Source: Bryopsis sp. KO-2023 | Taxonomy: Eukaryota > Chlorophyta > Ulvophyceae > Bryopsidales > Bryopsidaceae | Direction: 5' to 3' | NCBI GenBank assembly: GCA_030272585.1 | Contig: BSYQ01000002.1 | Span: 1,612,001 to 1,676,000, forward strand | Length of the DNA: 64,000 nucleotides | Part shown: in pieces, positions 12,914 to 53,099 of the stretch | Position numbering within the stretch: the stretch's first letter is position 1 | Layout: every line of letters begins with the position of its first letter | The notes under the pieces: model-generated | Told to the model about the DNA's origin: nothing | Seen by the model: only the letters and a program-made list of their open reading frames with translations | Database searches by the model: none | Program-made: the position numbers and the translations under genes

Positions 12914-13612
12914 ATGGATCGTCTTTTACCATTGTATACCACAGCAGCTCGAAACTACGGAGTTTCTATCCCGCAAGATTTGGCTTTGTATCGACAATTG
13001 TCGGATACAACCCTTTTGCCCGCGGCGAATAACCCGGTCGAGGCTCCCTCGACAGGAGCGACTTTGGGACTTTGGTTTGATTTTGGGCGAACGGCGGACG
13101 GTCTGGAGTTACAATCGACTCTGGGGAAACGCTCAGGCTTCTGGCAGGAGATTGCGAATACCGCTCCGGTATTGTATTCGCTGTTTGTGACTACTGCTAA
13201 TCTGGTTGGGTTTTTGGCGCACCCTGGAGTTCCGGAGGCACTGCGTGAACATCTCCACCCGATTGTGTCTGCGCAAGTACGCACCTTGGATTTAGCTGTT
13301 GCCCAGTGGCAGGTGTTACAGACGCGGGGTTCCCAAGACCCTGACGTTCCCGGTGCAGCAGCAGGGCTGCAGAATCAGATTCGATTACAAGGAGCTCAGT
13401 TCCGGGGATATTCCGCCCCAGTGGCCCACGAATATTTCGGCTCGTTTCGGGAGCAGTTGCAGCGGGCGCAGGTTAAGCACGCTACTACGCCCTCTCGGGG
13501 TGATCAGAAAAAAGGTCGTTCTCGTAAAGGAGCGCAGCAAGGACAGGGCGAGAATTCTGGGGCTCAGCAACAGCAGCAGCCTCCGCAGAATCAGAATCAT
13601 CCAAAGAAGTGA
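12914..13612 (+). CDS. DIRS-like ORF1, Gag-like protein
   Basis: A 232-residue protein from a true ATG about 110 bases inside A1. The first ~170 residues are predicted mostly helical. The C-terminal ~60 residues are basic and Gln-rich (KKGRSRKG, then QQQQQPPQNQNHPKK), typical of a nucleic-acid-binding tail. There is no CCHC zinc knuckle. Its position before an RT ORF gives the Gag call, not sequence similarity I can name. Its stop, TGA at 13610-13612, is followed at once by the in-frame ATG of the RT ORF. Expression of the second frame therefore probably needs stop-codon readthrough or termination-reinitiation at TGAATG. Confidence 0.7.
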   Translation: MDRLLPLYTTAARNYGVSIPQDLALYRQLSDTTLLPAANNPVEAPSTGATLGLWFDFGRTADGLELQSTLGKRSGFWQEIANTAPVLYSLFVTTANLVGFLAHPGVPEALREHLHPIVSAQVRTLDLAVAQWQVLQTRGSQDPDVPGAAAGLQNQIRLQGAQFRGYSAPVAHEYFGSFREQLQRAQVKHATTPSRGDQKKGRSRKGAQQGQGENSGAQQQQQPPQNQNHPKK

Positions 13613-15685
13613 ATGCGGTATCGGCCGCCAGCAGAATGGCCAGTTCGCGATCAGACGACTTTTCTCTTCAATCAGCCGAGGAAGCGGTTGACGATTTGGA
13701 GACGTATGGGAGCTTCCCGGCGCACAATGAAATGGTTGCATCAGGGGGTGGATTGGAATTGGATCTCAGGACCGCCGCCCCCCTTCCACGAGGGGAATTC
13801 AGTGATGGAGGGGGCAACTGGTCAAGCATGGGACAAGATTTTACAAGAGTATTTGGATCTCGGGGTGTTACGGCCGGCCCGTTCGAATCGCTGGGTGTCC
13901 AAGGCCTTCTTGATCAAGAAACGCGATTCTCCCGACTACAGGCTCATCATGGATTTACGACCAATCAATCAGTGGATTCAGGTTCCCAAAGTCCGGTTCG
14001 AGACTCTGCAGTCGGCGATCGGCCATTTTCCAGAAGCCGCCCACATGATTCAATGGGACTTGAAACATGCGTACTTCCATGTGCCCATCCACCCCAAGCT
14101 GAGGAAATATTTGACGATTATGGTAAATGGTCGTCTATTCGAGTGTTGTGCATTGCCGTTTGGTTTGTGTATTTCACCTTTTGTATGGACAAAGGTGATG
14201 AAGGATGTGTCGTCCTTTTTACGTTTTCCGCGACAAGTGGCTTGTCCGCCAGGGGGCATTTTGAAGAAAATTTGGAAAGCCGATATTCCCGTCACGCTTT
14301 TAGTGTATTTAGACGACTTTCTAGCGTTATACAAGGGGAAAAAGGTTTTGTCTCGATGGAGCAGTTGGATTCAGAAAATTTTCCAGGCTTTAGGCCTGTT
14401 AGTCCACCCCATCAAGAGCGATTTTTCGCCCTCCAGGAGGAGGATTCATTTGGGATTAGAAATAGATACCAATCAATGTCTTTTACGAGTACCGGTTACA
14501 AGGTTGTGTTGGATCCAGGGGTTGGCACGGTTGTTGCTCGATCGGGGGCGCCGACAGCGTTGGAAGCTCCCAGTTCGACTGGTGGCATCGTTCTGTGGCC
14601 TTTGCCAGAGCACCAGCCCAGCGTTAAGCGCCGCCAGGTTCTATTTGAGCCATTTATACGCTCAGATCGGTCAAAAGAAGACTTGGAATTCATGGGTTCC
14701 CATATCTGCAGCCGCGAGGAGGGAGTTGCAGTGGTGGCGAAACGTTCCCGCGTCCTGGAATGGAACTCGGTGGAAAGCCGGGAAGATCCATTGGACGCTG
14801 GAAACCGACGCCTCCCTCACCGGCTGGGGGGCCTCGTTGTTGAAAGGCTTGGTGGAGACCGACGAGCGGGAGCGACGAGCACAGGGGGCAGTGTGTCACG
14901 GCTCTTTTCAGGCCGACTATCAGCAACAGTCAATCAATTGGAAGGAGCTGACGGCAGTGTCGCGCGCCTTGGAGCATTGGGAACCATGCCTCGGCAAATG
15001 TCTGGTATCCGTGGTTACGGACTTCAGGGTAACTTATTGGGCGCTCAAGAAGCTACGGGTGTACGAGCCGACTCTGGTTCCTGTATTACAGCAGATCGTC
15101 GAATTTCTGACGCGGACGGGGGCGCGGTTGTGCCCACGTTGGGTGGCCTCCCAGGACAATTTCCAGGCAGACGCATTGAGCCGCCTCCAGTCTCATGGCT
15201 GGAGACTCAATCCGGCTATTTTTCGTCGGTTGGAGGTTCACTTTGGCCCGGTTCGGATAGACCGGTTTGCCACGCTCAGGGATCGGCAAGTGGAGGAATA
15301 CAACTCACGAACTTGGGAACACGAGAGCTCAGGCATCGATGCTCTCTCCCAGAGGGATTGGGACAGAGGCGTTTCGTTCGTTCACCCACCCTGGGGATTG
15401 TTGGAGAAAACTATCGACTTCCTCAACAACCTACCGCGAGTTCGTGCCCTGTTGGTACTGCCTTGGTGGCCCGGAGCAGTGTGGTGTCGCCACGTGATGA
15501 GCCTAGCCCAAGGAGGGATTTGGCTCCCGGATCGAGCAGGGACATTTTTACCTCATCCGGGGACGTGCAACCAGACCCCGTACCCCCCTTGGCGTTCGGT
15601 AGTGTGGATTATCAACAAACCGAAGAAGGTTTGGTTCTGGAAGGACAAGGTAATTCCCTTCGAAAAATTGTCCTCGCAGTATTAA
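13613..15685 (+). CDS. Reverse transcriptase / RNase H of DIRS-like element
   Basis: A 690-codon ORF in the same frame as ORF1, separated by a single TGA. RT blocks are visible: YRLIMDLRPINQW near residue 110, MIQWDLKHAYFHVPIHP near 145, LPFGLCISPFVW near 180, and the catalytic YLDD box at residues 232-235 (nucleotides 14306-14317). RNase H follows, with LETDASLTGWGASL, a WKELTAV block and a late NFQADALSR block. The last ~150 residues (RIDRFATLRDRQ, FVHPPWGLL, LLVLPWWPG, TFLPHPG) form a further conserved domain. DIRS elements often carry a methyltransferase-like domain here, but the HPPW string alone does not prove one. No DDE integrase is present. Confidence 0.88.
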   Translation: MRYRPPAEWPVRDQTTFLFNQPRKRLTIWRRMGASRRTMKWLHQGVDWNWISGPPPPFHEGNSVMEGATGQAWDKILQEYLDLGVLRPARSNRWVSKAFLIKKRDSPDYRLIMDLRPINQWIQVPKVRFETLQSAIGHFPEAAHMIQWDLKHAYFHVPIHPKLRKYLTIMVNGRLFECCALPFGLCISPFVWTKVMKDVSSFLRFPRQVACPPGGILKKIWKADIPVTLLVYLDDFLALYKGKKVLSRWSSWIQKIFQALGLLVHPIKSDFSPSRRRIHLGLEIDTNQCLLRVPVTRLCWIQGLARLLLDRGRRQRWKLPVRLVASFCGLCQSTSPALSAARFYLSHLYAQIGQKKTWNSWVPISAAARRELQWWRNVPASWNGTRWKAGKIHWTLETDASLTGWGASLLKGLVETDERERRAQGAVCHGSFQADYQQQSINWKELTAVSRALEHWEPCLGKCLVSVVTDFRVTYWALKKLRVYEPTLVPVLQQIVEFLTRTGARLCPRWVASQDNFQADALSRLQSHGWRLNPAIFRRLEVHFGPVRIDRFATLRDRQVEEYNSRTWEHESSGIDALSQRDWDRGVSFVHPPWGLLEKTIDFLNNLPRVRALLVLPWWPGAVWCRHVMSLAQGGIWLPDRAGTFLPHPGTCNQTPYPPWRSVVWIINKPKKVWFWKDKVIPFEKLSSQY

Positions 15686-16773
15686 ACGAGGAGTTTGGAC
15701 AGCAACAGTATGATTGGGAGCGTTTGCTAGAAGTGGATATACAATGGCCGTCTGAGATTGTGGCTTTGCGGCTGCATGTGGTGCCCGATTTGGTTCGCAA
15801 GATTATTGCATCGAATGCGCCGTCTGGACGGGATACTATTTTTGCAAAGTTTAGAAAATTTTGGCATTTTATGCAGTCTACCAAAGGGAAACCCCCGTTT
15901 CCTGTATTAACCCCGGAGATTTATGAGTACTTGACTTTTTTGAAAGAGGAAGGAAAAGTGAGTCCTGTGTCCGCGCGCCAGTATTTGACGGCGATCCAAT
16001 CCATGCACTCGTGGACTATGTTGGGCGCCTTGAAACTTTCGGACGAGGTGACCAAGAGGTTTATCGCGGGATGGGGCAAGGATTTGGCGGAACAATCACC
16101 GGAGAAGATTCCGGTGCAGCACTCGCCAGTGCCCTCCAGGGCGGTCCAATTTTGGCTATTTCTGGTTCGGGAACAGGATCTGACCCTTCCTCAAGTCAGA
16201 GATCTTTTATTGATGGTATTCGATTTCCTTTTCTTCGCTCGGGCGGATACGGCGTTCGCGGTTCGCCTGCAGGATCTGGAACTGGATGCGGGTGAGTGCA
16301 CGATACATTTTATCGAGCGACGCTATAAAGCGCATAATGCTTTTGAGTTGCGACGGTCGAGGCTTTTTCCTTGTTCGGGGTGCCCAGAGGTTTTCGGGGC
16401 GTTTGAAAAGTTTTTGAAAGCGCGGAAAGAAAACTGGGGCCAGGATCACGAAATGGCGACGTCTCCACTCGCCTCATTATGGCGATTGCCTGGCGAGCCA
16501 GTTTCATTGGATGCGAAATTTGTGGCGAAGTGCTTCTCCAGAGTTATCTTGAATTTTGGAGACGCAAGTGGATTGCCTAAAGGTTGTGTGTATGGCCATC
16601 ACTCTCTTCGTCGGGGCGGCGCATCCGCAATGTATGCGATTGGGATTAGTGAAGGGGACATTAAATTCTGGGGGGGGTGGTCTGCATCGTCGACGGCCGT
16701 TTGGTCGTATATCGACAAAGCGCAGGTCGCGACGGAGTCCGACTTGTTATTTTTTGCATGGAAAAAACGGTAG
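15586..16773 (+). CDS. Tyrosine recombinase (YR) of DIRS-like element
   Basis: This frame (+1 relative to RT) ends in a phage-integrase-type tyrosine recombinase. Catalytic residues are visible in order: Arg in FFARAD (codon 16240-16242), His-x-x-Arg in HHSLRRGG (16600-16611), Trp in KFWGGWS, and the nucleophile Tyr in VWSYIDKA (16708-16710). An N-terminal SAM-like/core-binding helical region with RKFWHFMQS and SARQYLTAIQSMHSW precedes it. The frame stays open far upstream, to 13609, through the whole RT gene (1054 codons). The true start is therefore not fixed, and I give only the part that is clearly YR. Expression may need frameshifting or internal initiation. Confidence 0.85.
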   Translation, partial: PLAFGSVDYQQTEEGLVLEGQGNSLRKIVLAVLNEEFGQQQYDWERLLEVDIQWPSEIVALRLHVVPDLVRKIIASNAPSGRDTIFAKFRKFWHFMQSTKGKPPFPVLTPEIYEYLTFLKEEGKVSPVSARQYLTAIQSMHSWTMLGALKLSDEVTKRFIAGWGKDLAEQSPEKIPVQHSPVPSRAVQFWLFLVREQDLTLPQVRDLLLMVFDFLFFARADTAFAVRLQDLELDAGECTIHFIERRYKAHNAFELRRSRLFPCSGCPEVFGAFEKFLKARKENWGQDHEMATSPLASLWRLPGEPVSLDAKFVAKCFSRVILNFGDASGLPKGCVYGHHSLRRGGASAMYAIGISEGDIKFWGGWSASSTAVWSYIDKAQVATESDLLFFAWKKR

Positions 16774-21820: not shown

Positions 21821-22609
21821 GCAAGGTTTTCACTACTCTGCACAAGGCAGATACGTCACCATGAGGAGAGCATCACAAAAGGGTTGTTTTGGTTTTTCGC
21901 ATGAGTTGGTCGATTCGTAAAAAGAAGAAAGTAAAAATTATGTGGGAAATTATCAGCCACCGGCATTAGCGATGTCAATGAGGTAGTTAGCTACCCCATC
22001 GACGATCGAAATGCCGAAATTCCCATGGTGGGCGAATTCTGATCGGTTGACGAGACCCCCCGGGATCAACCGGGGGACGACCTTGGTTGCATCATCGTTG
22101 TGGAACAATCGGAAAAAGGTGGGTTCTACTCCCAGACGTTCCTCTCAACTTTTTGTCCCTCTCTGAGACACTCGCCATGAGAGTCGTTGACGCTGCTCTT
22201 GGATGAAAAAGTCGACATTGCACAGAAAGCGATTAACACCTGTGCGATGTAACTCAAATTTTCGTGCACCTTTCCAAGTTTTTTCATGGGATTTACTTGG
22301 GGTGTGGTAAATACTTGTCGCATTCAAAACTTCGCGATTTGCTGCGGGGAAACAACGCTGCTAGTGCCGTGGATGGGAGTTTCCGCTAGTCTACTTTTGC
22401 GGCGCTTACACTTCATCGCACCCCCTCTGCCAGGTTTCCATTGGCGGTGCGGAGCAAGAGTATTGTTTGACGGCTGTGAGGTTTTGAGTGTGCGTATTTT
22501 ATCGTTTTCTTTTTTTTTTTTTCCTTGCAACTTCTTTTCAATGCGCTGATAGCCGGTCACACGGAGTCCGAAAGTCTCAAAATAGAGAAGCATTTGCCTT
22601 GGGCCAGAG
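21821..22609. other. Spacer between two DNA transposons
   Basis: No supported gene. A poly-T run lies near 22509-22522. The last six bases (CCAGAG, 22604-22609) are the left flank copy of the hAT target site. Confidence 0.4.
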
Positions 22610-22621
22610 CCATACTATGGA

Positions 22622-22905
22622 TCCGATCACGATCAGATCGGTCTCCGATCAACCGGGAGACCGATCATGATCGTGATCGGCCGATCACCGATCTGATCGG
22701 TCGCCGATCAGGTCTGGCAGGGCCGATCATCGATCACGATCGGCCGATCAAAAACTGCCGATCAGGTGCCGACAGGATGCGACGCTTGATCGAGATCGTG
22801 ATCGTGATCGGCGCGATCGACTATAATCGGCTTGCGCCGATCATGATCGGCGCAACACCGATCATGATCGGTGGGTCGTCTACGTCAAGAATCGATCATT
22901 GATCG
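22622..22905. repeat. Left subterminal GATC/CCGATC array
   Basis: About 28 GATC sites in under 300 bp, mostly as CCGATCA, TGATCGG or CGATCATGATCG, in both orientations. Subterminal motif clusters are the usual transposase-binding sites of hAT elements, as in maize Ac. That role is inferred here. Confidence 0.85.
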
Positions 22906-23004
22906 CGGGTGAGATGCAGGTGAGTCACGCGGGCACATCGCATGTTCGGTTGCTGTTAATCTGGTGAGCGTTTAACTCCACGTCTTATCAGCGCCCCGTT
23001 CGAA

Positions 23005-25683
23005 ATGGGCCGGCATGGAAAAAGAAAAGCGCTCGTCACCCCTGCGAGGTCGGGGCAACGCCCACACACGTCCCAGAGGAGACCAGTTCCGACCGGATCT
23101 GGAAGCGGGGGGTTGGAACCTCGTCGCCAGGGCAGCGTTCCATCCGTGGGGCCGCAGGGGTCGGGGCAAGCATCTGACCTGACCAACAGTGCGTTACTCC
23201 CTGATCTGTTCCGCCTTGTTGTACTCTTATGGTTTTGTGGGGGGGTGAGGTGTTCCCTTGTTGGATTGTGTGAGGTGCTTGTGCTTTCTCCAGTTGTTCT
23301 GGTTCTGCTTTTATGAGGTGTTTGTCCTGTCCTGCCCTGCCCTGCAGTGAACAGAAATGGAAAGGAAGCTGATCTGCTGGAACTGGGTGCAAGCCCTCCT
23401 GTGATTCCTGTTCGGAGAAGTAACACATGGGTTGACAAGATGTATGTCAGCAGTCACGAAGGCAAGATCCTGGTGTATAAGGATGATCGGGGCAGAAAGG
23501 TGGTGTCGTGCAGAATCTGTCATGAACAATTGTCATGGGTGAAGGGAGGCAGGATCCCCCTTTTGAATCATGCGGCCAAACACGGTATCCGGATCAGTTC
23601 CGAAATGGAAATCGCTATCGCGGAAGGCTTTGAGGGCTGCCATTTGGAAACGCAAAATGATCAGGACATGAAAACAGGCACACAAGGGGGTCGGATCAGT
23701 TCTTTTGGGACCCAGAAAACACTCTCGTTTGTGTCTAAATGGGGACCTACTACCCGGGAGTTCCAGTCGTACCGGCACAAGGTTATGTGCTATCTGGTCA
23801 GCGTCGGGGCCCCCTTCAGGACAGTGGAAGATCAGCACTTCCGAGACATGTGCACTCAACTGAACGCATCTGCTCCGCCTCTATCAGCGAAATCCATGTC
23901 TCACCAGGTCGGATTGTCCTCCAACAGGCTTAAAAAAAAGATGAAGGATATGGATCTGAGCAGATTCCGACCATGCTTTGTTGCTGATGGTTGGTCTCAG
24001 CAGCCCAAGCATTGGTTCGCGATGGGGGCTGTCTACATACACCGGGACCCGGAACAGGATCTGTTCGAACTCAAGCGGATCAGTCTCGGGACCTGGGAAA
24101 TGGAGGGTACCGCAACTGCTTTGGACATTTGCACAAAAATGAACGAGATCAGGGAGGACTTTGATCTGACCGGATATCAGGCCAGCATCGTTACCGATCA
24201 CGAGTCCAGAATGGGGGCAGCATGTGAAATGAACTACAGTTACGATTGGCACGGGTGCGGGACACACAGAATAAATTTGGGGGTAAAGAAGGGTCTGAAA
24301 AATGCCCCCCAAAGCGTGAACGACCTTGTGGCCAAAGTACACGATCTGTGCAGAACAGTGATGGGTGCATCCACTCATTGGGAAAAGCTGAAACAGATTC
24401 AGATCGATCGAGCCAAAAGAAAAGAAGCTAATCTGGAACGGCAACAAGCGGAGGCTGCTCCCCAAGAGTTAATTTATGTGGTCCGGTCCTCGACAGCCAC
24501 GGGTGCCTCTGGGATTGGCAACGGTGGGCTTGGTGAGAGCCCCGGTCCATCTCAAGTTGATGAGGATGAACTTCTGGAGGATGCACAAGAGGAATCTAAT
24601 CAAAACGACCATCAGAGCCAGGAACAGGACGACCCTACATCGCAGGAAATATATTCAAGTGATGAAGACGCATGTCCCGATGATGGAGACGACGTGGAGG
24701 AGGCAGAAGACTGCCCAGGACCTGTCCGCAGATCTGACAAGGTTCTCAGACTCACCTTGGCGGTGGAGACTAGGTGGAACAGCATCTGGTACATGTTGCA
24801 TCGATTGTTGATTTTGAAACCCGATCTGATCCAGCTCTTCCCCCTCCTTCCCCCCCAATACAATATCAACCCCCAAGAATGGAAAGTGCTGCTGGAACTG
24901 TACCTGGTTCTGAGGCCATACAAGGAAGCAACCAAGGTACTGGAGGCAGAAAAGAAGGTGACGGGGAGTGCCGTCCTGATGCTCATGGCTCGGATCAGCG
25001 CTGCGGTAGATGCTATGAACATCGAGGAACCGGATGTGATAGACTTCAGAGATGTGCTCCGCACAGTCATGGACCATGAATTTGACGATCCCGCATGGCT
25101 CCTGGCCGTCGGGTGCATGCAGCATCTGGATCCGACCAAACTATCACTCGAAGACGCTGAGGTGAATCGGTATTTGTGGGGCACCCCAGGGCGCTTTCCT
25201 TGCTTGAGGAAGCAATTCAGCAGACCTGATCTGTGGGTTTCAGATGTGCTGCAAGAGTGCGTGACTCTGCTGAAGGAGATCCGGCTGCGATCAGATTACA
25301 GAGGTGTTGACAATCCGGGGGAAGGCAGAGAGGGAAAAAAAAAGAAAAAGGAAAATCTCGAACGGGACTGGCTCTGTGTGTGCCCTCCTCCATCTGCTAC
25401 GGGCGGTTCTTATTCTGATGAGTGGGAGCGATATTGTGGGGTCAGGAAGGTTATTCAGAGCACTTCATCTGTTCTGGACTGGTGGAGGGTACACCAGGCG
25501 GCATACCCAACAGTTTCGATCCTGGCTGCCGAGTATCTCTGCATCCCAGCCTCCAGCGCCTCGGTTGAGCGGATGTTCAGTGTCAATGGCCACCAGCTGA
25601 ACAAGCGCAGGAGGGCGATGGAGGAGAGCAAGGTCAACCAACTGACCGTGCTCCGGGACAATCTGCATCTGTTCAGGGCATGA
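23005..25683 (+). CDS. hAT-superfamily transposase
   Basis: The main exon (open from 23347) carries the whole hAT domain set. A BED-type finger is C55-C58...H75-H79 (CRICHEQL...NHAAKH). The RNase H-like catalytic core has D214 (VADGWS), D284 (IVTDHES) with the following HGCGTHRINL motif, and E474 (VETRWNS). The C-terminal hATC dimerisation region includes YLCIPASSASVERMFS. A Glu/Asp-rich insert lies between the second Asp and the Glu. The open frame begins without an ATG, but TGCCCTGCCCTGCAG ending at 23346 is a good 3' splice site. A donor at 23245 (GTGAGG) would remove 102 bases in phase and join an 80-codon basic exon starting at ATG 23005 (MGRHGKRKAL). First-exon structure is inferred; the core is firm. 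Confidence 0.9.
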
Positions 25684-26455
25684 CCTGAACTGCTTCTGTT
25701 TGATTGTGTGGGACAATCTGCAGTCTGATTCAGAACCCTCCTGTTTCGGAGGAACTCTCCTTTTTTTGGTTTGGGGTGCCGGGTATGTTCTCTGTTTGGG
25801 GTGCTGGGTATGGATCAGACAATCTGCATCTTGACCTGGTGTGATTTGCCCCGAGTTTTGTTTGTTTTGGTATGGGTATGTAATCCAAACTTTTTTGAAT
25901 GCTTGGTAAAAAGTTTCAGAGGTTTCCACAGATTCCAGCACTGATTCAGCCCACACAGATAACCCTCTGTTTATGGTTCATGGTTCATTGCATGACTCAA
26001 ACAAAACAAAAAGTTTCAGAGGTTCCACAGATTCCAACACTGATTCAGCCCACACAAATAACCCTCTGTTTATGGTTCATGGTTCATTACATGACTCAAA
26101 CAAAACAAAAAATTTCAGAGGTTCCACAGATTCCAGCACTGATTCAGCCCACACAAATAACCCCCTGTTCATGGTTCATGGTTCATTACGTGAATCAAAA
26201 AACAGATAACAGATACCAGACTGGTTCATGGTTCATTTCGTGAATCAAAAAACAGATAACAGATACCAGACTGGTTCATGGTTCATTACGTGAATCAAAA
26301 AACAGATAACAGATAACAGACTGGTTCATGGTTCATTACGTGAATAAAAAAACAGATAACAGATAACAGACTGGTTCATGGTTCATTACGTGAATCAAAA
26401 AACAGATAACAGATAACAGATAACCCTCTGTTTATGGTGACTCAAAACAGTTTCT
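25684..26455. repeat. Tandem repeats between convergent hAT genes
   Basis: Two arrays occupy the gap between the 3' ends. From about 25910 a unit near 100 bp (AAGTTTCAGAGG...CAGCCCACACA) occurs about 2.6 times. From about 26171 to 26430 a 50-bp unit (CTGGTTCATGGTTCATTACG plus CAGATAACAGATA) occurs about five times. Both share GGTTCATGGTTCATT. They may contain the poly(A) regions of both genes. Confidence 0.85.
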
Positions 26456-28218
26456 TTAATTTGGCTCCTCCTCCTCCACCAACCTCCCATCCGGTCCAAC
26501 CCTGACCCGATACACACGTGTGCGGTCTTCAGGGATAGGTGCAAAGTCGACCGAGCCAGTATCCAGGTCCCTCATTACGTTTCGGTCCTCCAAACGGGTC
26601 TGATGGTGGAAGAGGCCTTCACGGACTCTGTGGAGAGCGTAACAGTTCTGCAGATACACGTTTTGCACGAACTGATTCAGATGGGGCATGGAGGCGAAGG
26701 TTATCGGGAATTGGATGGTGAAGTCGGGGAAGAAGGCATACTCCGTCTGCATGTTGGCTCTCTCTCGCTGGGCAGTTCTGCGCTGTTCCCTGCTCCGTTC
26801 AGACATGATCCTTCGCAAGGGGGCCTGCCTGCGCCGAGGGTACCCCTCACTGTCGTTGATGCAAGGTTGTCCATCAAAATCCATTGGCCACCTGTCCATC
26901 AATGGGGGTCTGGGGTTTGCCTGCCTCTGACCACCATGACCACCCTGGCCACCCTGACCACCCTGACCACCCTGGCCACCCTGACCACCCTGGCCACCCT
27001 GACCACCCTGACCACCCTGACCTGCTCTGTTCCTGTTCCTGCCGCCTCCCCCGAATTCCCATCCACCAACATTCCCCCTTCCACCAGCTCCAGCAGCTCT
27101 GAACATGTTTGGGGGTGGCCCTCTTCCACCAGCTTCAGCAGCTCTGAACATGTTTGGGGGTGGCCCTCTTCCACCAGCTTCAGCAGCTCTGAACACGTTG
27201 GGGGGTGGCCCTCTTCCACCAGCTTCAGCGGCTCTGAACAGATTGGGGGGTGGCCCTCTTCCACCAGCTTCAGCGGCTCTGAACATATTGGGGGGTGGCC
27301 CTCTTCCACCAGCTTCAGCAGCTCTGAACAGATTGGGGGGTGGCCCTCTTCCACCAGCTCCAGCAGGTCTGAACATGTTTGGGGGGGAGCCTCTTCCACC
27401 AGGGTGAAGCACAGGTTCAGGTTCATAAACAGGCTCCTCGTCCGTCATACTCCACGGGTTTTCCGGCAGCTGCTCAGAGGGTCCCTCAGGTTCAGGTTCA
27501 GATTCAGGTTCATCTGCGGTTGGAAGTGTAGCTTCAGGCAAAATCTCTTGTGCAGGATCAGGTGCTGGAAGACTTGCAGCTTCGATGCTCCAGTCGAACG
27601 TTCTGCTCAGATCTAGATCAACCTCGTGCATGGTTGCAACCTCCTCTCTGAGCTGGTCCAGATGAGGCAATAGCTGGCGATCACGAAGGAGTTCTGCAAA
27701 AGACAGAATGTGAATGTGAGGGCAGAGAGAAAAACAACCTAATTTGAACCTGATGCTGGACTGCTCACCTGTAGGCACCATGTAGGGGTATTCCATGTCC
27801 CCCAGGTTGGTGCTCCCCTTCCTGGTCAGTCCTGGAGGTGTCACCTGAATGGAATCGAGTATGGGGTCGATGCGCCTTTCAGGGGGGTTGCCCGCTCGGT
27901 ACGCTCGCAAGAAAAGTTCGTCTTCGCTTCCCGCAGCGCTGTCCAGGGCGGATGCAGCTTTCCAGAACAGAGCCTAGGAAGACAAGTAACAGTAACCCTA
28001 AGTCAAAACATTCGAAACAGAAACAGTGCAGCAGATAGCAGGCAGCATACACTTACATTTTCCAGACCAAAATACGTGTTAAGCGACGTCAAATGCCGGA
28101 ACACCACCTCGGCGGCATCCCGATCTACCACCGTCCCGGGCTGGAACAGGTCTGTTCGGTTTTGGAGCCTGTTCCGGAGCCTCACGACATACTGCCGTGC
28201 TTTGAGTTCCACGTACAT
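26456..28218 (-). CDS. Second hAT-element gene: Gly/Pro-repeat protein, unknown function
   Basis: Three exons on the minus strand. Exon 1 is 28218-28057, with ATG and 54 codons, reading MYVELKARQYVVRLRNRLQ. Exon 2 is 27973-27769 and exon 3 is 27693-26456. Introns of 83 and 75 bases have donors GTAAGT and GTGAGC and pyrimidine-rich AG acceptors. The predicted protein is about 534 residues. Exons 1-2 form a compact helical domain, followed by an acidic Pro/Glu stretch. About eight copies of a 15-residue repeat (GGRGPPPNMFRAAEA) come next, then a GGQ run, a basic segment (RRIMSERSREQRRTAQRERA) and a C-terminal domain with FPITFASMPHLNQFVQNVY. I recognise no family. Placement inside the element argues for a role in transposition or its control. 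Confidence 0.75.
26935..27405. repeat. In-frame 45-bp and 9-bp coding minisatellites
   Basis: The 45-bp unit that encodes GGRGPPPN(M/L/V)FRAAEA is repeated about eight times between roughly 27060 and 27405. A 9-bp CCACCCTGA/CCACCCTGG unit encoding GGQ or GGH is repeated about nine times between 26938 and 27020. Copies are nearly identical, which implies recent expansion. Confidence 0.85.
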
Positions 28219-28349
28219 CGCAATCGATCAGCACTGCAGGCGAGACAACAACAAGATACCACGATACAAAGGCGCACGGTGCGGTGAAGTCGAACAGGGA
28301 GCGAAGTCGATATATTCGGGACAGTACGGCAGAACTGACTAACTTTGGA

Positions 28350-28804
28350 TTTGATCGGAAGTGATGATCGGTGCAAAAGTCGGTTTTTGATTTCTTGGAC
28401 CGATCATAATCGGAATTTGAAACCAAATCCCGATCAACCGACCATGATCGGAGCTGATCGGATCAACGGCCGATTAATCGGCGTTTCACCGATCTTGATC
28501 GGCCGATTAGGCGTTTGCATGTCGCAACGCTTGATCGTGATCGGGATCGTGATCGGAGCAACCGATTAGATCGACAATCGGAAGCCCGATCCCGATTACG
28601 ATCAAGCTTTGATCGGCCGACCACGATCATCGATCAGGTTTTGATCGGCCGATCACGATCACGATCATCGATCATGATCGGTAAAAAAAAAAAAAAAAAG
28701 ACCGATCATTTTCAGAATCATGTGGAACGAGATCGTATCAGGTCAGATCAATGAAACGACCTGTCCTGACATCGAAAATGGACGGCCGATCATTTCCGAT
28801 CACG
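28350..28804. repeat. Right subterminal GATC array
   Basis: Dense CCGATCA/TGATCGG motifs in both orientations, with a poly-A run near 28683-28700. The string ACGCTTGATCG followed by repeated GATCGTGATCGG occurs here and in the left array in the same orientation, so some motifs are direct repeats and others inverted. Confidence 0.82.
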
Positions 28805-28816
28805 TCCATAGTATGG

Positions 28817-31549
28817 CCAGAGCTGCTCGGGAAAGGGAGATCGCCTACGAACATCACAAATACGACCTCACCCAAGCCGGCCAACCTCACCCAAGCCGGC
28901 CAGCGTTTAAAAAATGCAAAGGACCACCGGTGAGGTATCGTGGGTGTGAACGACGGTGGCGACGTACGGCACGTCGCCGTCGCGTCCCCTCGCCCACGGG
29001 AATCCGCCCACGTCAGCCCTCGGTCGCCAGGAACCGTACGGCGTCGTGGCGACCCTGGAACGCCATAGGTATGGTCAGTACTTAAGGAGGTCCTTAAGTA
29101 CTGGGAAGTCGCCTCACCCGAAGGTAAGCCGCTCGCCACGATCGCTGGCGTCGCTGACGACGCCGTACGTACGACGCGTTCCTGTGATCCGCAGGTTTCT
29201 GGCGCAGCGAGGAAAAAGGAGCAGCTAGGTGTAGCGGAGCGCGGACAGGTGAAGGCACAAGGAGAGAGCGCAAAACGGAGCCGAGGAAAGAAAAAAGGCG
29301 AGCCGAGGAGCGCGGACTCGTGAAGAAAAGGACGGCGAAAAACGAAAAGTAGGAGAGGAAGCCGAGAAAAAGAAAAGGAGTGAGGTGGATCGAGCGGTGA
29401 GGTAGAGAGAGAGCCGGTGCTGTCGAAGGCTGGAGGAAAATATCGTGTGCGCCAGGGGAGGTCGACGACTGGACGCCTGCCTGGTGAGGGACGCCTGCCT
29501 GTTTTGTTTTGAATTTTGTTTTTTCGTTTGTTTGCTTGTTTTCTTTTTGAAAAACCACCATGGTCATTCCTGTGCCACCGGAGTGGCTCGGAGGAAGGCA
29601 GAGGGAAACGACACCATGGTGCTGCAAAAAATCCTGGGATGCCCAAACAGACAAAATGCTTCGGGACATTCACTCCATATTGGCTTAATCCATCGATGCA
29701 TGTATTGAAACCTCAGGTGCGGCTGGACCTGGAATTCTTTTTGCCCTGTGTGTGTTTGTTTGGTGAGAAGAATTTTTTCTGTAGCTGCTTTGGCAACACT
29801 TGTTATCGTCCCCATCATGTGCATGCTTGTTAGTGTGGATGGATGCACTCCCCACATGGAATCTATCAGAATCCACAGTTTTTCAGGAACGGACGACAAC
29901 TGTTATGACGTCACACACATGTGTCACTGTGTGTCGCCACGTGTGTCATATGTCATGACACATTTGCATCTGTCCCCACACGGTGGTAGCAGGGTCCAAT
30001 CACCAAGTATGGTGATTGCTACCATGTGTACTAGCAACGCTCATAAAAGGCGTTGGTACACTCTCCTTCCTAAGTTTTGGTTTGAGAAAGACTTCACTAC
30101 CACTTGAAGTCAAGCAAGCACAACAACAACTCAAGCCAAATTCGCCCCCATATTCTAGATGGCGCGCTTGCAAGGTGCACACGACGTCCCAACTCACATA
30201 TACAAGAACGCATACATACATTGAACGCATGCAACGCGTTTTGACATCAATGTTGGGCCGTCACAGGCATCCGATCGCGCTAATTGTGGCAGAATAAAAG
30301 TTTTAGGGATGAGCGACAAAGCATACAAACTTTTTGGAATCCACTTCTGTTTTGGAGCATACAATTGGGTGCAGTTTTTTATCACCGGAGTAGGTTGGTT
30401 TTTTATGATGCTATGCAAGGTGGCAAATGGATGTTTGTTGGACAAAAGTTTCAAAGTTTTCATGCGCTTTGCTCCCTGTTTTCGAAATTAATCTAGATGA
30501 GGCAGACAAATGGAGGCTTTTTGCACGTTCAAAGTAAAATAAGAATGTTTTTGTGAAGGGGAAGAGTCCGATAAGAATCGAGCAGATCTTCCGGAAACGT
30601 TTGCGGGGATCCCTCGTTCAAGGGCGTTTGAGAAAGAAACATAATATCGCAATTTCGATGCTAGTCGACCAAATGGCGAAGCTTTCTCTGAAGGGTTCGT
30701 TGGTTTTTGCGCCAGTTAGAAGGCATAAAAAAAATGCCAACACGATCTCAAGGGAAGCCAATTTATCTTGGGGATTGACCACTCGGCGTTGAAATGGCTT
30801 AAAACCTTAAAGGATTTGCGAGTGATCCGCTCTTGAGGTGGTTGCTACTTCTTAGCGAGTTTTACTTCCGAGTTCCTTATCGTAATGATAAAGACTTGGG
30901 AAAAGCTAACATGTCATTTTTTTTCGTATAAAAATTTTGATGGAAAACACGTTGACGTTTTTCAAAAAAGGGTGGTCTATTTCGGAGCAACAACATCATC
31001 CGTAGCAAGAGCAAACTGATGTGGTTGTGTCGGCACCATTTGGATCAGTTGAGCATCTTCAAGATGAGTATACTCAGCTTCTAAGGACTCATGCCTCGAA
31101 ACCTTTGATTGAAAAGAATTCAAACGACCTTGTCTATGAAACCGCAGTTTGAACATCCCTTGGGTGCATTAGATAGATTATCTATAATGGATGCCCTATA
31201 TGATGAAGGAAGATTGTTCTTTGTTCATGCAAGCTATGCACTTTTCTTGAATGCATAAACCTTACATGATATCGCTTTTGGGCTAAGTCCCTGACGAGCT
31301 GCAAGGCGATGTGTTAACACACCAGCGACCATCAACTAAGGCATTGTCATCACTCACGACTAAAAGCCACCACTCCTGCTATACTAGGAAAGCGTCCCCC
31401 CCAAAAGTAGGACTTGTTGATAAGCATTTCACCAAACCTTAGAAAAGTATGGAAAGAGGTAGGTTTTTTTAAGGAGCATCGCCCAAAATAGGGTTCATTA
31501 AATGAACCATGAAGAGTTTTTACATATTTAGAAACATTGTTTTATGGTG
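28817..31549. other. Intergenic stretch between hAT and LTR elements
   Basis: 28900-29200 is GC-rich and rich in CGTACGGC/GCGTCG motifs, with a perfect palindrome at 29076-29103. Open frames over 28738-29673 on the minus strand are long but read through purine/pyrimidine-rich DNA and show no motif. A further short inverted repeat (AATCACCA-AGTA-TGGTGATT) lies near 29998-30017. No gene can be supported. Confidence 0.35.
29076..29103. repeat. Perfect palindrome, 13-bp arms
   Basis: CAGTACTTAAGGA, two bases (GG), then TCCTTAAGTACTG. It lies in the GC-rich segment 28900-29200 and has no tail resembling a terminator. Confidence 0.85.
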
Positions 31550-32077: not shown

Positions 32078-35000
32078 TCAGAAGAAGTGCCTGATCTGTG
32101 ATTTGTGCACTTCTAGGAAAGGTTTCCTACCCCTCCTGAGTTTGCCATTGATTTCCTCAATCCTGACTCGACTGGGGGAAATCAGTTCCACTATTTTATA
32201 TGGTCCCTTCCAACTTGCACTGAATTTCTGATCCTTTTTTTCTGCCCTTGCTGAATCATATAAAAGGACCTCCTCTCCCAGAAAATGATTCCAGTCAGAC
32301 AATTTTTTCTGTGCATTCACCTTTTCTCTGCTCTCCTTCAATCTCTGTTGAATTCTATCCCACTCCTTGCTTGATAGTGTCCACACTTTGCATGGTGGCC
32401 ATCCAGTGGTTCTATTCACCATGTTGCAGACCATCCAGTTGGCCTTCTGCAGCCAATCATCCCAATACCCTCCATGATCCAACAACAGTACTCTGATTTT
32501 AGAAATCAGAGCTCTGTTCCTCCTTTCCACCACTCCATTCGCTCTGTGGTGATAAGGGGGTGTCCTCCAAACCTGAATGTGGTTGTCTTTGTACCATGCT
32601 CTCATGTCCTTCGAATGGAAGTAGGCAGCTCCATCACATAATAGGTTGTCTGGAGATCCATGAGTCGCTATCCACTCACCTAAACACTCTCTGACCTGTT
32701 TCCCCTTCACCTCCTTTGTCTTCCAAACCATCGAATCACGAGAGAGGTGGTCCACCACCACTACTATATGATTGTGGCCAGACCTACCAGAGGGTAGTGG
32801 ACCGATGATGTCCATGCCCACTGTTTGACCAGGGTGGGTTAGATGCCCAGCTCCCCTAAGAAGTTCTTTTTCCTTCTTAGGGGCTACCCTCTGGCAGGTC
32901 TGGCAGTACCTCTGAATTTCCTCCAGATCTCCTCTATTAGCCTTCCATCCATGTTGTGCACACAGCCATAGCAATTTTTGTGGGCTCCAGTGTCCCTCCT
33001 TGTGCAACCGTTCCAGCTGATCTCTGCTCAGCTCTTTCCCTTCCGCTATCTTGCCCAACTCCTCTCCCCTTGAGCCTCCTGTATATGCATGTCCCAACTC
33101 TGTGTTTCCTGACATGCCAGACCTTCCTGAATCACTCTCTTTAGAGTCCACTGCCTCAGCCTGCTCCAGCACCTGTTCTGTTGATCTGTTGGATCCTCCT
33201 GATTCCATGCTTGTGTTTTTACTGATTTGCATCTCTTGTGGTTCAAGTGCACACACCTGCCCTTGTGTTTGTGTTGGCCTACTGTACCATCTAGACAGGA
33301 GATCAGCCCAAGGGTTAGATGTCCCTGGCAGGAATTGAACCCTCAACCTTCCAGGGGAGGGGTAGTTCTCTGCCAACCAAGCCAAGAGACGCACCACTCT
33401 GATGTCCTCCACGACTTCTTTCGGTGCTAACTTCGTAATCCTTTGCACTGCTGAGTTCGAATCAGTGTGCAGGGTTAGCTGACCCCCAGCCACCACCTGT
33501 GAAACCGATTTCAATGCCCATATGAGAGCTTGAAGCTCCCCCAAATAGGAGCTGACTTTTTCTCCTCCCTTATCCGCACACTTTCGACTGTTGAGGCTGA
33601 CGATACACCCCTCTGAGGGGGTACCTCTGAACAGAACATACCCCCACCCAGAGGATGACCAGTCTGTAAACAGATTATACTCTCCAGAATCTGAATTACC
33701 CAACTTGACATTATTAGTCAGTATGGATTTCCATGCTTCTGCCACCAACTGTTGCATGAGTTTCGGATTCGATCCCTTGGGAAGCTCCAGCAGAGGTTGA
33801 ATGATGTTATGGAAATTCGGGCAAACTCCCCTGCAGACATTAAGCATGCCGACGAATTGACGGACGTCCCTGACGTCGCGCATTTCTGGCAACTGACGCA
33901 CTTGGTCGTCGACGTAGCGTCGAAGGCCGTAGCTCCCCTTCGTGACCGTGTACCCCAAGTAGGTAACCTCCTTTTGTCTGACGACCGCCTTTGCCCTGTT
34001 TATCCGTAATCCCATTTCGTCGAGCCTGGTCAGAACACGTCGCAGGTTCCTGTCATGGCCTTCGACGCCTTCTCCGCCGATTATGAGGTCGTCGACGAAG
34101 TTACGACCGGGGTATCCGTGGATAGAGCTCCGGATGCGGGAGTGGAACAGCCCTGGCGAACAGTTCCATCCCTGTGGAAGGCGGAGGTAAGTGTAATCCC
34201 CCTCTCCGGTTTCAAACGCGAAGAGGGGCTGGAGCGAATCGCAAACGTCCACCTGGAAGAAGCCCTGCTCCAGATCCAGGACGGTGAAGTAGTCCCACTC
34301 CGGTGGGATCGACTTCAGCACATCCCGGACATGGAGCAGGGACGTCTTCCAGGCGTCGGAGTACGAGTTCAGCAAACGAAAATCCACCGTCTTACGGACC
34401 TTTCCATTCGGCTTCCTTAGGAAAAGTACGGGGGAGAACAGAGCCCGCTCGCCGACGCCCAGGGGACGGATGACGCCTTGCCCCTGCAACGAGGTAAGCA
34501 GTTTTCGAATCTCCTTAGGCGCGACGTCGGTGGCGTAGTACCGTATCCCCGTGTTGTGCAGCGGAATCCTGTGGAAGGGAACGCGCCATTTCACCTCCCT
34601 GTGGCAAACCCGAAGAGGAGCAGCAGTCGCCTTTGCGTCTCTGCTAAGGTCGTCACGAATCACGTTCGGAAATTCGCGTCGCCAGTATTCCACTGAGCCT
34701 GTATCCTCCGTCTCTGACTGCGTTTCCGACGTGCAGGCAGGTTGTTCCTGAGTGGTTTGCACCGTAGCAGTATGTCCGTTCCAGAGTCTTTCCCCTGTCC
34801 CTACTGCTGTGGTGTTGTCGAGAAGGTCGTCAGCCACCTCCTCCCAAATCGTCGTCAGGTGAGATAAAGGGGATGTAGTGTGTTCGCTAAAACTTCTGCC
34901 TGGTGGTTTCCCTCTGAGGGCTTCCCAGTACTTCCAGAGATCGAGGTGCTCCTGTTCCACTGTCCCCCCTACCCCCCCCCTGGGTGAGCAGAGTAATTTT

Positions 35001-38000
35001 TCCTCTTGAAGGTGAGAGACTGAACTCTGGTTTTTCCCCAGTATGTCACTGTTAGTGGGACTCTCAGTAGTTACAGTCTGTCCCTCATTGTGTGTTTGTT
35101 CCACTGCCCCGACTACCCCCCCCCTGGGTGAGCAGCCCCCTTTTTCCTTTTGTGAACTCTGAACTGTACTCTGGCTCTGTCCCAATGTTTCCCTGTCTGT
35201 AGGACTCTCAGTAGCTACAGCTTTGCTTTCTTGCAGCAGAGTGCTGTGTGCAGTCAGGCTGTTAGGTGTGAGGACACTCTGGGTGCCTTGGTTTTCCCCA
35301 CATGTCTGTCCCTCTCTCCCCCTTGGTAAGTCCCTCCATTGATCCTGCTGGGGGGTGGAGAATGTACCCTGGCTTGTCCCCAGTGTAGCACTGTTTGCAG
35401 GACTCTCAGAAGCTACATTCTCCTCCTGTGTGTGGAATTTCGACTGCTGTACCCTTCCCTGAGTATCTGACTTGGGTAAGTGATGTACAGCCTCTGAACT
35501 GCTGGTTTGTAAGCCAAAAATCTTTCCTCCCTTCTCCCTATCTGAACTGATGAACTGTCCAGTAGCATTATAGCTATTGGGCTGACATTCAAAGTCTGTG
35601 TTTGATGTCTGTGTTCTCCCCTCATTCTCAGAGTCTTTCCCCTCAATCCTGTCCCTGAGTGGATAGTGCGTAGCAGAACTCACATCCAGTTCTGTGAGAG
35701 AGGCTGTGCTCTGGCTCTTCCTCAGTGTTGCACTGTTTGTTGGATTCTCAGTAGCTACAGCCTCACTGTTCTGTGTTGTTAAACTCCGTAACACACACCC
35801 ATCCCCTGAACTGAGATGCTGTTCTCCAGAGTCGGAACTGATGGTCGGTATATCCCTGTTTTGGGCAGAATTCGATTGTACTCTACTGTCCCCCTCTGGG
35901 CTCAACTGCTGTTCAACAGATGCAAGCTGGCCTGTTTGTGAATCCCAGTCCTGATTCGACTGCATTGTGCCCCAACTGCCCTTTGAACCACTGGTTCTGT
36001 CAAACACTTCCAGTGACCCACAGTCATTCTTTGGTGGTGGAAAAGAAACCTTTTTACATCCTCCTTCACTCTGTTTTTCTATTCCAGAACACCCCCCATC
36101 CTCAGATTCCACTTCCTGTGGTGGAAAAGAAACTGTTTGACATCCTCCATCTCCCTTCTTTTCAATCCCAAAACACCCCTCCTCCTCAGGTTCCACTTCC
36201 TCCTTCTCTCTGAGATCCAAACCATGGGGCAGTAAACCATCCTCCTCCTGTTCGACACATTCCTCCTCTGCTCCTCCTTCCTCTATCACCACCGGCGTTC
36301 CCTCAGCCACCCTGAAGCTAACCAAACACAGTTTTGCAGTAAGCATCCTCGCCTCCAACTGGGCGTTATACAGCGTGAGTCGAACTCTTCCATCGGAGTT
36401 CGTCGTCACAGAGTGAAGGAGGTTGTGGGGTTGTCCTATGGCCATTAACGAAAACAGGCCAGGCCCAGTAATTCGAAAAGGAAGAACAACCGTTTTAATC
36501 GCGTAGGGTCCCAGAACCAACGACGAACCCAGGGGTAAACGAAACTCCCCATCCTTCCCCACTAAACGAATCCTGCGTCCTTTTTTCGTGAGGGGGTCTT
36601 GCAGCACTCGAACCACACCCCGCTCTAACTCTCCCGACTTCTCCCCTACCTTCATGACTGCGTGGCAAGAGATGGACGTTCCGTTCTTGCCCCAGAGGCA
36701 GTTGCGAGCGCAGTCGACGGTGAGGGAAAGGTGTGCGAGGAGGGGGACGCCCAGAATAATCTGGGATGTGTTTTCCGAAACCAAAAACACTTCCTTCCCC
36801 TCCCACGGTCCTACTTTGACGTCGAGCGTCACCGTCCCTCGCACGCTCTCCTTGCTTCCATTGAACCCGGTCAGCGTTAGCACTCCTTTCGGAGGAGCGA
36901 CTCCCCATCCGTGCCTTTGACATACCTTCCATGGCATGATGGAGCATCCACTTCCGCTGTCGACCAACGCTTCGAAAAGGTGGTTACTCCCTCCCTGTTC
37001 TCCTTCCAGCCTGAGTTTCACCCGAAGTTGTTTTCGCACCGTATCTCCGGCGGGCGTTCCTGCTGCGACCGAATGGCACGACGACGACGACTGCTCGTGC
37101 TGTATTGCCTCCAGCAGCTCGCCGAAAGCATCTTCTTCCACACTCGCCACCTGCGCTCTCCTCTTCGTCCGGCACTGCGCTTCCCAGTGCCCCTTCCGCC
37201 CGCAAAACTGGCAGTACGGGATCTCTCCCGTCCGAGTAGGTGGCCTGTCCGCCACCAAAACTTTCGTCCCCACCTTAGGTTCTGATTTAACATCCACTTT
37301 CACTTCTGCCTTTCCCTCCTCCTCCTTCTTTACTTCCGCGAGAACTGCTTCCCTGTATTCCGTCCTCCTCTTCATTCGATCCAAAAGCTCCCGAAGTCCG
37401 CTGAAGGTCAGTTTTTCGAACTCTGTTTCCAACACGACGCGGCTCAACACCCTTCCCGGTAACCGGGCCACGAGTAGCTTGACCGCTTTTTTCTCCTCTT
37501 CCACCTCCGCCGCTTGTCCCGTGTTTAAGAACATCAGGAAAAACCGCTGCAAGAACTCCAACTCTGTCTCCTCCTCCGTTTGTTGCAGCCGCCGAAGTCT
37601 GTCCAACGTAGCTGATCCCTCCGTCGAAACTGAAGCCGCAGGCGCCGCACTCCCGAGCTCCAGGACTTCCCTTCTCATCGCCGTCTCTGTTCTACGCCGC
37701 CGTAACCATGCAGAACCTTTGTCGAGGAACTTCAGTAGGTACCCCAGCAGAAGCGAGGAGGCGATCCCTGCTCCGACCAGGTTGGCGTTGGATCCCCGCA
37801 GGACACCCCAGAGCTTGTGCATCCTGTCTGCGAGCTGCACAAGCTCCAGGGTGTCCCACGCAGCAGCGGGGTTCGGTGAAGGGGAGGGTAGGGCACGATG
37901 TGAGTGTCGATGTCTGATCGACCACATCAGCCTCTGCCAGAGCTCGTGTGGAGACGTTCTGGGCGTGTGAGGCGTAGAGAATGGAGGAGGTGATGGGGGA

Positions 38001-38146: not shown

Positions 38147-38472
38147 GTTGTTACTGGAAGAACGAGCCTTCCGCAAAAAAAGTCTTACAACAAAAAGACA
38201 AACCCGAACTCCCGTTCACAGACTTTCCTTCCCGACTCACTCAACTCTCACACTTCCTCCACTGACTCATACCTCGTACTTCTAACGTAAAACCCCTACT
38301 GCCATGGGGCCTCTCACCCGCACTGACCAGTCGATTCAACAGATTTGACATCGCTCTCAGAGTCAAATCGTGTGGTAGTACTTTCATTAGAAATGAGTGT
38401 CCGTTGTGTGAATTTGTTGATGTGACGCTCTTATGTCTGTCTTTCAGTACTTGTGTTCTACCCGGTCCAACA
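38146..38472 (-). repeat. 5' LTR of first LTR element
   Basis: 327-bp partner of the LTR at 31550-31876, no difference seen. It presumably carries the promoter, though no clear TATA box was picked out. Confidence 0.92.
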
Positions 38473-53019: not shown

Positions 53020-53099
53020 AGTTCTGTTCCGAGGAAAGACTTTGACGTGCCCCTCAACCCGTTTCCTTCCCAGTGATCGCTACCTCGTGTGAGGTGCCT

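Follow-up and report, generated by a model that had tools for sequence, protein, structure and literature searches.

The 64-kb window of the Bryopsis sp. KO-2023 genome analysed in this study (contig BSYQ01000002.1, positions 1,612,001 to 1,676,000; coordinates below are those of the window) contains a hAT transposon of 6,205 bp at 22611-28815, in which two genes face each other. One encodes the transposase. The other, here called the partner, is a three-exon gene on the opposite strand. According to the overview in PMC4423477, hATs generally encode only a transposase. The element is a young two-gene hAT transposon, ordinary in its ends and its transposase, and its partner looks like a long-standing part of a hAT lineage rather than cargo. 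The original prediction, made from the letters of the window, had correctly placed the two genes, the introns of the partner and the inverted repeats (Table 1). It had set the limits of the element at 22610 and 28816; the inverted repeats stand, whereas the true ends lie one base inside, the outer bases belonging to the target-site duplication.

The window element belongs to family A, one of at least six related families (A to F are described here) in this genome; the own-genome searches covered 91.1 Mb in 28 contigs. The terminal repeat CATACTA(T/G)GGA is common to families A, B, D and E and starts with CA, as in the consensus for hAT ends tabulated in PMC4423477. No recognisable left repeat was seen in the fetched stretches of families C and F. 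An 8-bp target duplication was exact in all 19 elements with both canonical ends, including those of B, D and E; 24 elements were tested, 5 of them without a canonical end, and two of the 19 (L012 and L015) share one duplication. Within the window element, the motif CCGATCA occurs 15 times in the left 350 bp and 14 times in the right 450 bp, and 2 times in the middle 4,805 bp. Counts at the ends and in the middle, made for four families, were 29/2 in A, 27/0 in B and 25/0 in E, with a weaker 7/1 in D. A repeat finder reported 24 tandem arrays in the window, 6 of which lie inside the element; the top three scores are all in the element.

The transposase is predicted to be encoded by two exons and to comprise 839 amino acids (aa). 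Exon 1 and the intron were placed by comparison, and the open frame of exon 2 alone lacks an early ATG. The intron is supported because the 839-aa model reads through in 20 of 21 family-A copies, window included, among them the two with longer introns listed in Table 1. A BED/hATC transposase had originally been proposed. The hATC part held: PF05699 was matched with E=2e-18 in the window transposase, and was also found in those of B, E and a metagenomic relative, P0001. The BED part was not secured by profile, and the first exon had been missed. A Cys/His pattern was noted by eye. In Pfam, zf-BED gave no match at E<=1 in the window transposase (exon 1 lay outside that query); in the family-E transposase it scored E=0.027, below the cut-off. 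A PDB search matched the Hermes transposase over the hATC region (E=3.1e-9). Three residues, D183, D253 and E710 (numbering from 23440), are invariant in all seven aligned transposases (A to F and P0001), and E710 falls in the segment aligned with Hermes; we take these residues to be the hAT catalytic triad. The protein searches gave one relative for the transposase, P0001, at 38% identity; its contig is no longer than 2,907 bases.

The partner gene is predicted to encode a protein of 534 aa, the splice sites of both genes having been set by comparison between families. Conservation is seen in its N-terminal region and its C-terminal domain; the repeats are not conserved. Gly/Arg/Pro-rich stretches with the motif GRGP(P/Q)P(N/G) are present in the partners of all six families, and in A and B the C-terminal domain has basic stretches. 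A VEP...EVELIGEF-like stretch, which we assume to resemble a SUMO site beside a SUMO-interacting motif, was seen in the partner linkers, where it is conserved in E (L033) and F (L034) and partly in D (L032).

As first suspected, the partner belongs to no family recognisable in Pfam, PDB, NCBIfam or large protein collections. Exon 3 and the first 162 residues of the family-A partner gave no Pfam match at E<=1; the partners of B, D and F gave only sub-threshold unrelated matches, and that of E none. A profile of the C-terminal domain found no match in PDB, nor did exon 3 in NCBIfam, and a search of viral contigs was negative too. When the whole partner was compared with 5.8 billion proteins, no relative was found among the 7,999 best word-sharing candidates scored, a list that the repeats probably filled. 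Residues 381-534, compared with the same collection, returned 132 candidates, none at E<=10. Judged by its sequence, the partner is not recognisably a TET/JBP dioxygenase or a Myb/SANT protein. No two-gene hAT of this type was found described in open-licence papers (Repbase Reports lie outside that scope), and the elements with this conserved second gene apparently form an undescribed two-gene hAT clade.

Family A comprises at least about 40 dispersed, near-identical copies. Its transposase DNA gave at least 41 matches at 97-100% identity (best 40 of 118 candidates scored), and its partner DNA at least 49 (best 40 of 71 candidates scored). Gene integrity was assessed in 21 of the roughly 40 copies, namely 20 fetched copies and the window. 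The original prediction had named other full-length copies without the partner as an outcome that would refute it, and this outcome was not seen. Partner sequence was present, intact or damaged, in all 20 other fetched copies, in one of them incomplete and in two interrupted. With the window included, the transposase is intact in 20/21 copies and the partner in 14/21; these 14 partners read to their normal end at 508-561 aa. Among the damaged partners, L012 and L015 have a premature stop at the same place, L014 and L016 have shortened frames, L019 and L026 are interrupted by extra sequence, and L020 is incomplete in the fetched stretch. Because L012 and L015 also have the target duplication GTCATAAG in common, they are probably one insertion that was duplicated with its flanks. 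The partner of L028 was considered dead and this was rejected: a 41-bp duplication ends its intron 1, and the gene reads to the end if spliced at the second acceptor. In several family-A copies the ends lie 25-34 kb apart (G000:C16:294126-325259, C12:963087-988053 and C8:3851412-3885168), probably through later insertions.

A search of the genome with the partner C-terminal domain gave 119 matches, which cluster mainly at about 96-100, 86, 57-63, 46, 40, 38-39 and 37% identity. One example of each diverged family was fetched (L030 for B, L031 for C, L032 for D, L033 for E and L034 for F). In each of them the transposase is convergent with a partner, in the same layout as in A. Identity to A is 65% (B), 56% (C), 54% (D), 53% (E) and 56% (F) for the transposase, and 62, 44, 36, 37 and 36%, respectively, for the partner C-terminal domain. 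A match to a host gene family captured only in the window copy had been named as a second refuting outcome; six families carry the partner, with co-diverging transposases, which speaks against such a capture. Partner gene models were built for A, B, D, E and F only, since an insertion seems to break up exon 2 in C. Intron 1 lies at the same place in all five models and intron 2 in four of them (Table 1); the B model requires two more introns in the linker. The interruption in L031 is a stretch with the translation IVKLVGDAIVVGCVGWIRDNLLANASI (near 5660-5550), also present in L034 (5515-5928), and is probably another mobile element.

The pairing of the two genes extends across the genome. A search with a 151-aa core of the transposase gave 104 matches, some genes being hit in two pieces. 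Of these matches, 84 have a convergent partner no more than 4.5 kb downstream and 14 others have one 6-20 kb away; the remaining 6 lack it. In the other possible arrangements, at distances of up to 4.5 kb, a partner was found on the same strand downstream in 0, divergently upstream in 2 and on the same strand upstream in 1 of the 104. As to the partner matches, 26 of the 119 are not the nearest partner of any transposase. These are mostly fragments, short or broken or diverged pieces, but three are complete in length with long open frames (C9:641467 of family A, and C9:4176902 and C2:4332893 of family E). No separate intact host-like homologue of the partner was recognised among the 119 matches, the flanks of most of the 26 unpaired ones having been left unfetched. 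Noncoding tandem arrays lie between the two stop codons in 6/6 families, with units of 99/50 bp in A, 19/27/52 in B, 66 in C, 62/78 in D, 98 in E and 83 in F.

The partner has evolved under purifying selection. The ratio of nonsynonymous to synonymous substitution rates (dN/dS) of the partner C-terminal domain was 0.39 between A and L035 (85% identical), 0.24 between B and L036, and 0.31 between E and F; the A/B and D/E partner comparisons were saturated at synonymous sites. For the transposase, dN/dS was 0.24 (A/B), 0.23 (D/E) and 0.56 (E/F). Within family A, 23 of 40 changes in the transposase and 17 of 30 in the partner (outside the repeats) were nonsynonymous or stops. Both proportions are below the neutral expectation (binomial p of 0.012 and 0.028, respectively, with shared changes taken as single events).

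The two genes also diverged along the same lines. Over families A to F, the trees of transposase and partner agree in their unrooted topology, which is ((A,B),C,(D,(E,F))). The identities of the two proteins correlate at 0.70, a value reached in 13 of 720 label permutations (Mantel test). In 15/15 family pairs, conservation is lower for the partner C-terminus than for the transposase. The comparison of E with F complicates simple co-descent, as the synonymous divergence (dS) is 0.16 for the transposase and 1.2 for the partner; the DNA of L033 and L034 is about 88% identical over the transposase and about 71-78% over the partner side. Given this low transposase and high partner divergence, parts may have been exchanged between elements, or the two genes may have diverged at unequal rates.

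Table 1. Features of the two-gene hAT element and its target site in the window
Feature	Position	Strand	Details
Left target-site duplication	22603..22610		8 bp, GCCAGAGC
Left terminal inverted repeat	22611..22621	+	11 bp, CATACTATGGA
Left subterminal array	22622..22960		CCGATCA-type motifs
Transposase exon 1	23005..23188	+	Predicted by comparison; basic N-terminus
Transposase intron	23189..23347	+	Predicted; 159 bp; two further copies have 164 and 169 bp, with the coding frame preserved
Transposase exon 2	23348..25683	+	Catalytic core with invariant D, D, E; hATC dimerisation domain
Intergenic tandem repeat	25908..26199		99-bp unit x 2.9
Intergenic tandem repeat	26172..26420		50-bp unit x 5.0
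Partner exon 3 and stop codon	26456..27693	-	End of N-terminal region, acidic linker, repeats, GGQ run, C-terminal domain
Partner C-terminal domain	26459..26920	-	154 aa; 26 invariant columns in 8 sequences
Gly-Gly-Gln coding repeat	26927..27022	-	9-bp unit
15-residue Gly/Arg/Pro coding repeat	27074..27402	-	45-bp unit x 7.3, GGRGPPPN(M/L/V)FRAAEA
Partner intron 2	27694..27768	-	75 bp; position shared with B, D and E; missing from F
Partner exon 2	27769..27973	-	
Partner intron 1	27974..28056	-	83 bp; L028 has 124 bp, with the coding frame preserved
Partner exon 1	28057..28218	-	
Right subterminal array	28366..28804		CCGATCA-type motifs
Right terminal inverted repeat	28805..28815	-	11 bp
Right target-site duplication	28816..28823		8 bp, GCCAGAGC, exact

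The co-occurrence in six families, the convergent pairing, the matched trees and the partner dN/dS of 0.24-0.39 indicate that the partner is a long-standing component of these elements, and it is very probably a conserved, working one. The original suggestion that the pair may be functional together is thus supported by conservation and purifying selection. We infer that the partner is an accessory protein encoded by the element, which would work in trans for the copies of the family it belongs to and whose target would be nucleic acid or chromatin. Of the possible functions, we place anti-silencing slightly ahead of a cofactor role in transposition.

Anti-silencing is our first choice of a specific mechanism because intergenic arrays occur in all six families with differing unit lengths, because the VANC proteins of VANDAL elements offer a precedent, and because PF00145 (C5-DNA-methyltransferase) is matched at two loci in the genome, so that a methylation to be countered may exist. 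The lower conservation of the partner C-terminus in every family pair counts in its favour as well. The choice is tentative, held with somewhat less than even confidence. The partner would bind the noncoding repeats of its own family, either the intergenic tandem arrays or the terminal CCGATCA arrays, through an architecture of conserved N-terminal region, flexible Arg/Gly/Pro-rich linker and conserved C-terminal domain. Once bound, it might keep the element free of repressive chromatin, allowing the transposase to be made, much as VANC acts on VANDAL elements. In a further, rather doubtful extension, these hATs would form a clade with a sequence-specific anti-silencing protein of its own. This protein would be new as a family, with no relation to VANC or TET/JBP, and would diverge in step with the transposase and the noncoding repeats, each transposon family protecting only itself.

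Several observations weigh against this interpretation. The best PF00145 match contains stops. The intergenic arrays may be plain slippage, since the coding repeats of the element expand too. The arrays of E and F are related in sequence, so not all arrays are family-specific. Beyond A/T runs, no 8-mer is common to the arrays of five or more families, and the few 7-mers in common are near chance level; Markov sequences had more 6- and 7-mers common to at least four families than the arrays did, an outcome to be expected with repetitive DNA. AlphaFold gave no confident fold for the C-terminal domain in 8 sequences (mean predicted local distance difference test, pLDDT, 55.3; predicted template modelling score, pTM, 0.28). 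In family A, the partner departs from neutrality weakly, and its single-copy changes (14 nonsynonymous and 1 stop vs 7 synonymous) are close to neutral. The family-A transposase shows little CpG-type decay, with 4 CpG vs 11 non-CpG C>T/G>A changes. Finally, L029 (G000:C1:9710000-9717600) has N-terminal exons of a partner and a right-end-like motif array, with no transposase and no match to the partner C-terminus in the fetched stretch; the genome has many similar N-terminal matches at 51-54% identity.

Nearly as likely as anti-silencing is that the partner is a transposition cofactor, which would bind the CCGATCA arrays or the transposase itself and be needed for nuclear entry, synapsis of the ends or target capture. 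The second genes of Mutator-like elements (MULEs) and Harbingers are given DNA-binding or integration roles in the accounts of PMC6446971 and PMC12730594. The frequent co-occurrence and co-divergence of the two genes would fit such a role, as would the motif arrays at both ends of the element and the basic stretches in the A and B partners. The difference in intact copies (transposase 20/21, partner 14/21) is a hint that not every copy needs its own partner, which speaks against a cofactor; yet both proteins can act in trans. Moreover, hATs with a single gene, Ac among them, have subterminal arrays too, and there the transposase presumably does the binding.

A post-transcriptional or dosage regulator is improbable. 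Here the Arg/Gly-rich partner would bind RNA of the convergent pair or limit the activity of the transposase. Proteins that bind RNA or form condensates typically have Gly/Arg/Pro-rich regions, and those of the partner, with their shared motif, recur in all six families; convergent transcripts may also overlap. No RNA-binding domain was found in the partner, however, either in Pfam or with the PDB profile search of the C-terminal domain, and conservation lies in the N-terminal region and the C-terminal domain instead of the repeats.

That the partner is a captured host gene riding as a passenger, with no role for the element, is very unlikely. hATs can capture genes, as in the case of histone H3 in Pseudocercospora fijiensis described in PMC6710886. 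Here, six families keep partner and transposase in the same orientation, the partner is under purifying selection, no separate intact host-like homologue was recognised among the 119 own-genome matches (most of the unpaired ones judged without their flanks), and no relative emerged among the candidates scored in the protein searches. Nested insertion of two separate elements, which the wider spacing in 14/104 matches might suggest were it not probably due to later insertions, is virtually ruled out by the single target duplication, as one pair of terminal repeats and one exact 8-bp duplication enclose both genes in 19/19 elements with canonical ends (24 tested).

Among known systems, the closest precedents are the hAT7 elements that carry TET/JBP genes and the VANC proteins of VANDAL elements. 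As reported by Kojima 2025 (PMC12730594), hAT7 elements of Puccinia carry a TET/JBP gene proposed to counter silencing and make 7-bp target duplications. They likewise are hATs with a second gene in multiple families; unlike them, the Bryopsis elements make 8-bp duplications, and their partner, for which Pfam gave nothing at E<=1 (family A), is not recognisably a TET/JBP dioxygenase. According to PMC10398659, silent marks are removed by VANC proteins, which bind noncoding tandem repeats belonging to their own family. VANDAL MULEs share with the present elements an extra element-encoded protein and noncoding tandem repeats that differ between related families. The transposase here is of the hAT and not the Mutator type, and the likeness to VANC is one of layout, not of direct sequence comparison. 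Like the histone H3 hAT of P. fijiensis (PMC6710886), the elements combine an extra coding sequence with an 8-bp duplication; that hAT is described as an intronless capture of a recognisable host gene, decayed by repeat-induced point mutation (RIP), whereas the partner is a conserved gene, predicted to be spliced, for which no host counterpart was found among the own-genome matches. Two genes, the second thought to help transposition, are also presented for Harbinger/Nuwa (Myb/SANT) and for Mutyl or MuDR (MutB, mudrB) in PMC12730594 and PMC6446971. These belong to other transposase superfamilies, and Pfam revealed neither a Myb/SANT domain nor any other in the partner. With Hermes, Ac and Tol2, the element shares hATC (PF05699), the catalytic residues, short terminal repeats, the 8-bp duplication and subterminal repeats, several of which are features attributed to Ac and Tol2. 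It differs from all three by the second gene, present in all six families examined.

Other candidate mobile elements were seen in the window. A long Ty3/gypsy-type retrotransposon frame at 48013-53079 (-) has reverse transcriptase, RNase H, integrase, a Tf2-1-like SH3 domain and a chromodomain. An open reading frame of 2,045 aa at 32081-38215 (-) combines a long N-terminal region with domains for reverse transcriptase, RNase H and integrase. A 1,081-aa frame at 13528-16770 (+) is possibly a tyrosine-recombinase element; its sole domain match, to a phage-integrase SAM-like domain (E=0.0007), is weak and sub-threshold. Elsewhere in the genome, a chitin-synthase gene was identified, whose best PDB match by E-value is 7wjm (from Phytophthora sojae), somewhat better than 7xs6 (from yeast). 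Searches for hydrophobin and Zn2Cys6 gave no match, although such negatives do not demonstrate absence; a fungal host was considered and dropped.

hATs, the textbook case of a one-protein transposon, also serve as gene-delivery tools. A second protein that has been kept through the splits into at least six families would mean either that some hATs need a helper or that a counter-defence was invented independently in this lineage. Since several families with near-identical copies occur in one genome, the question of helper versus counter-defence is directly testable.

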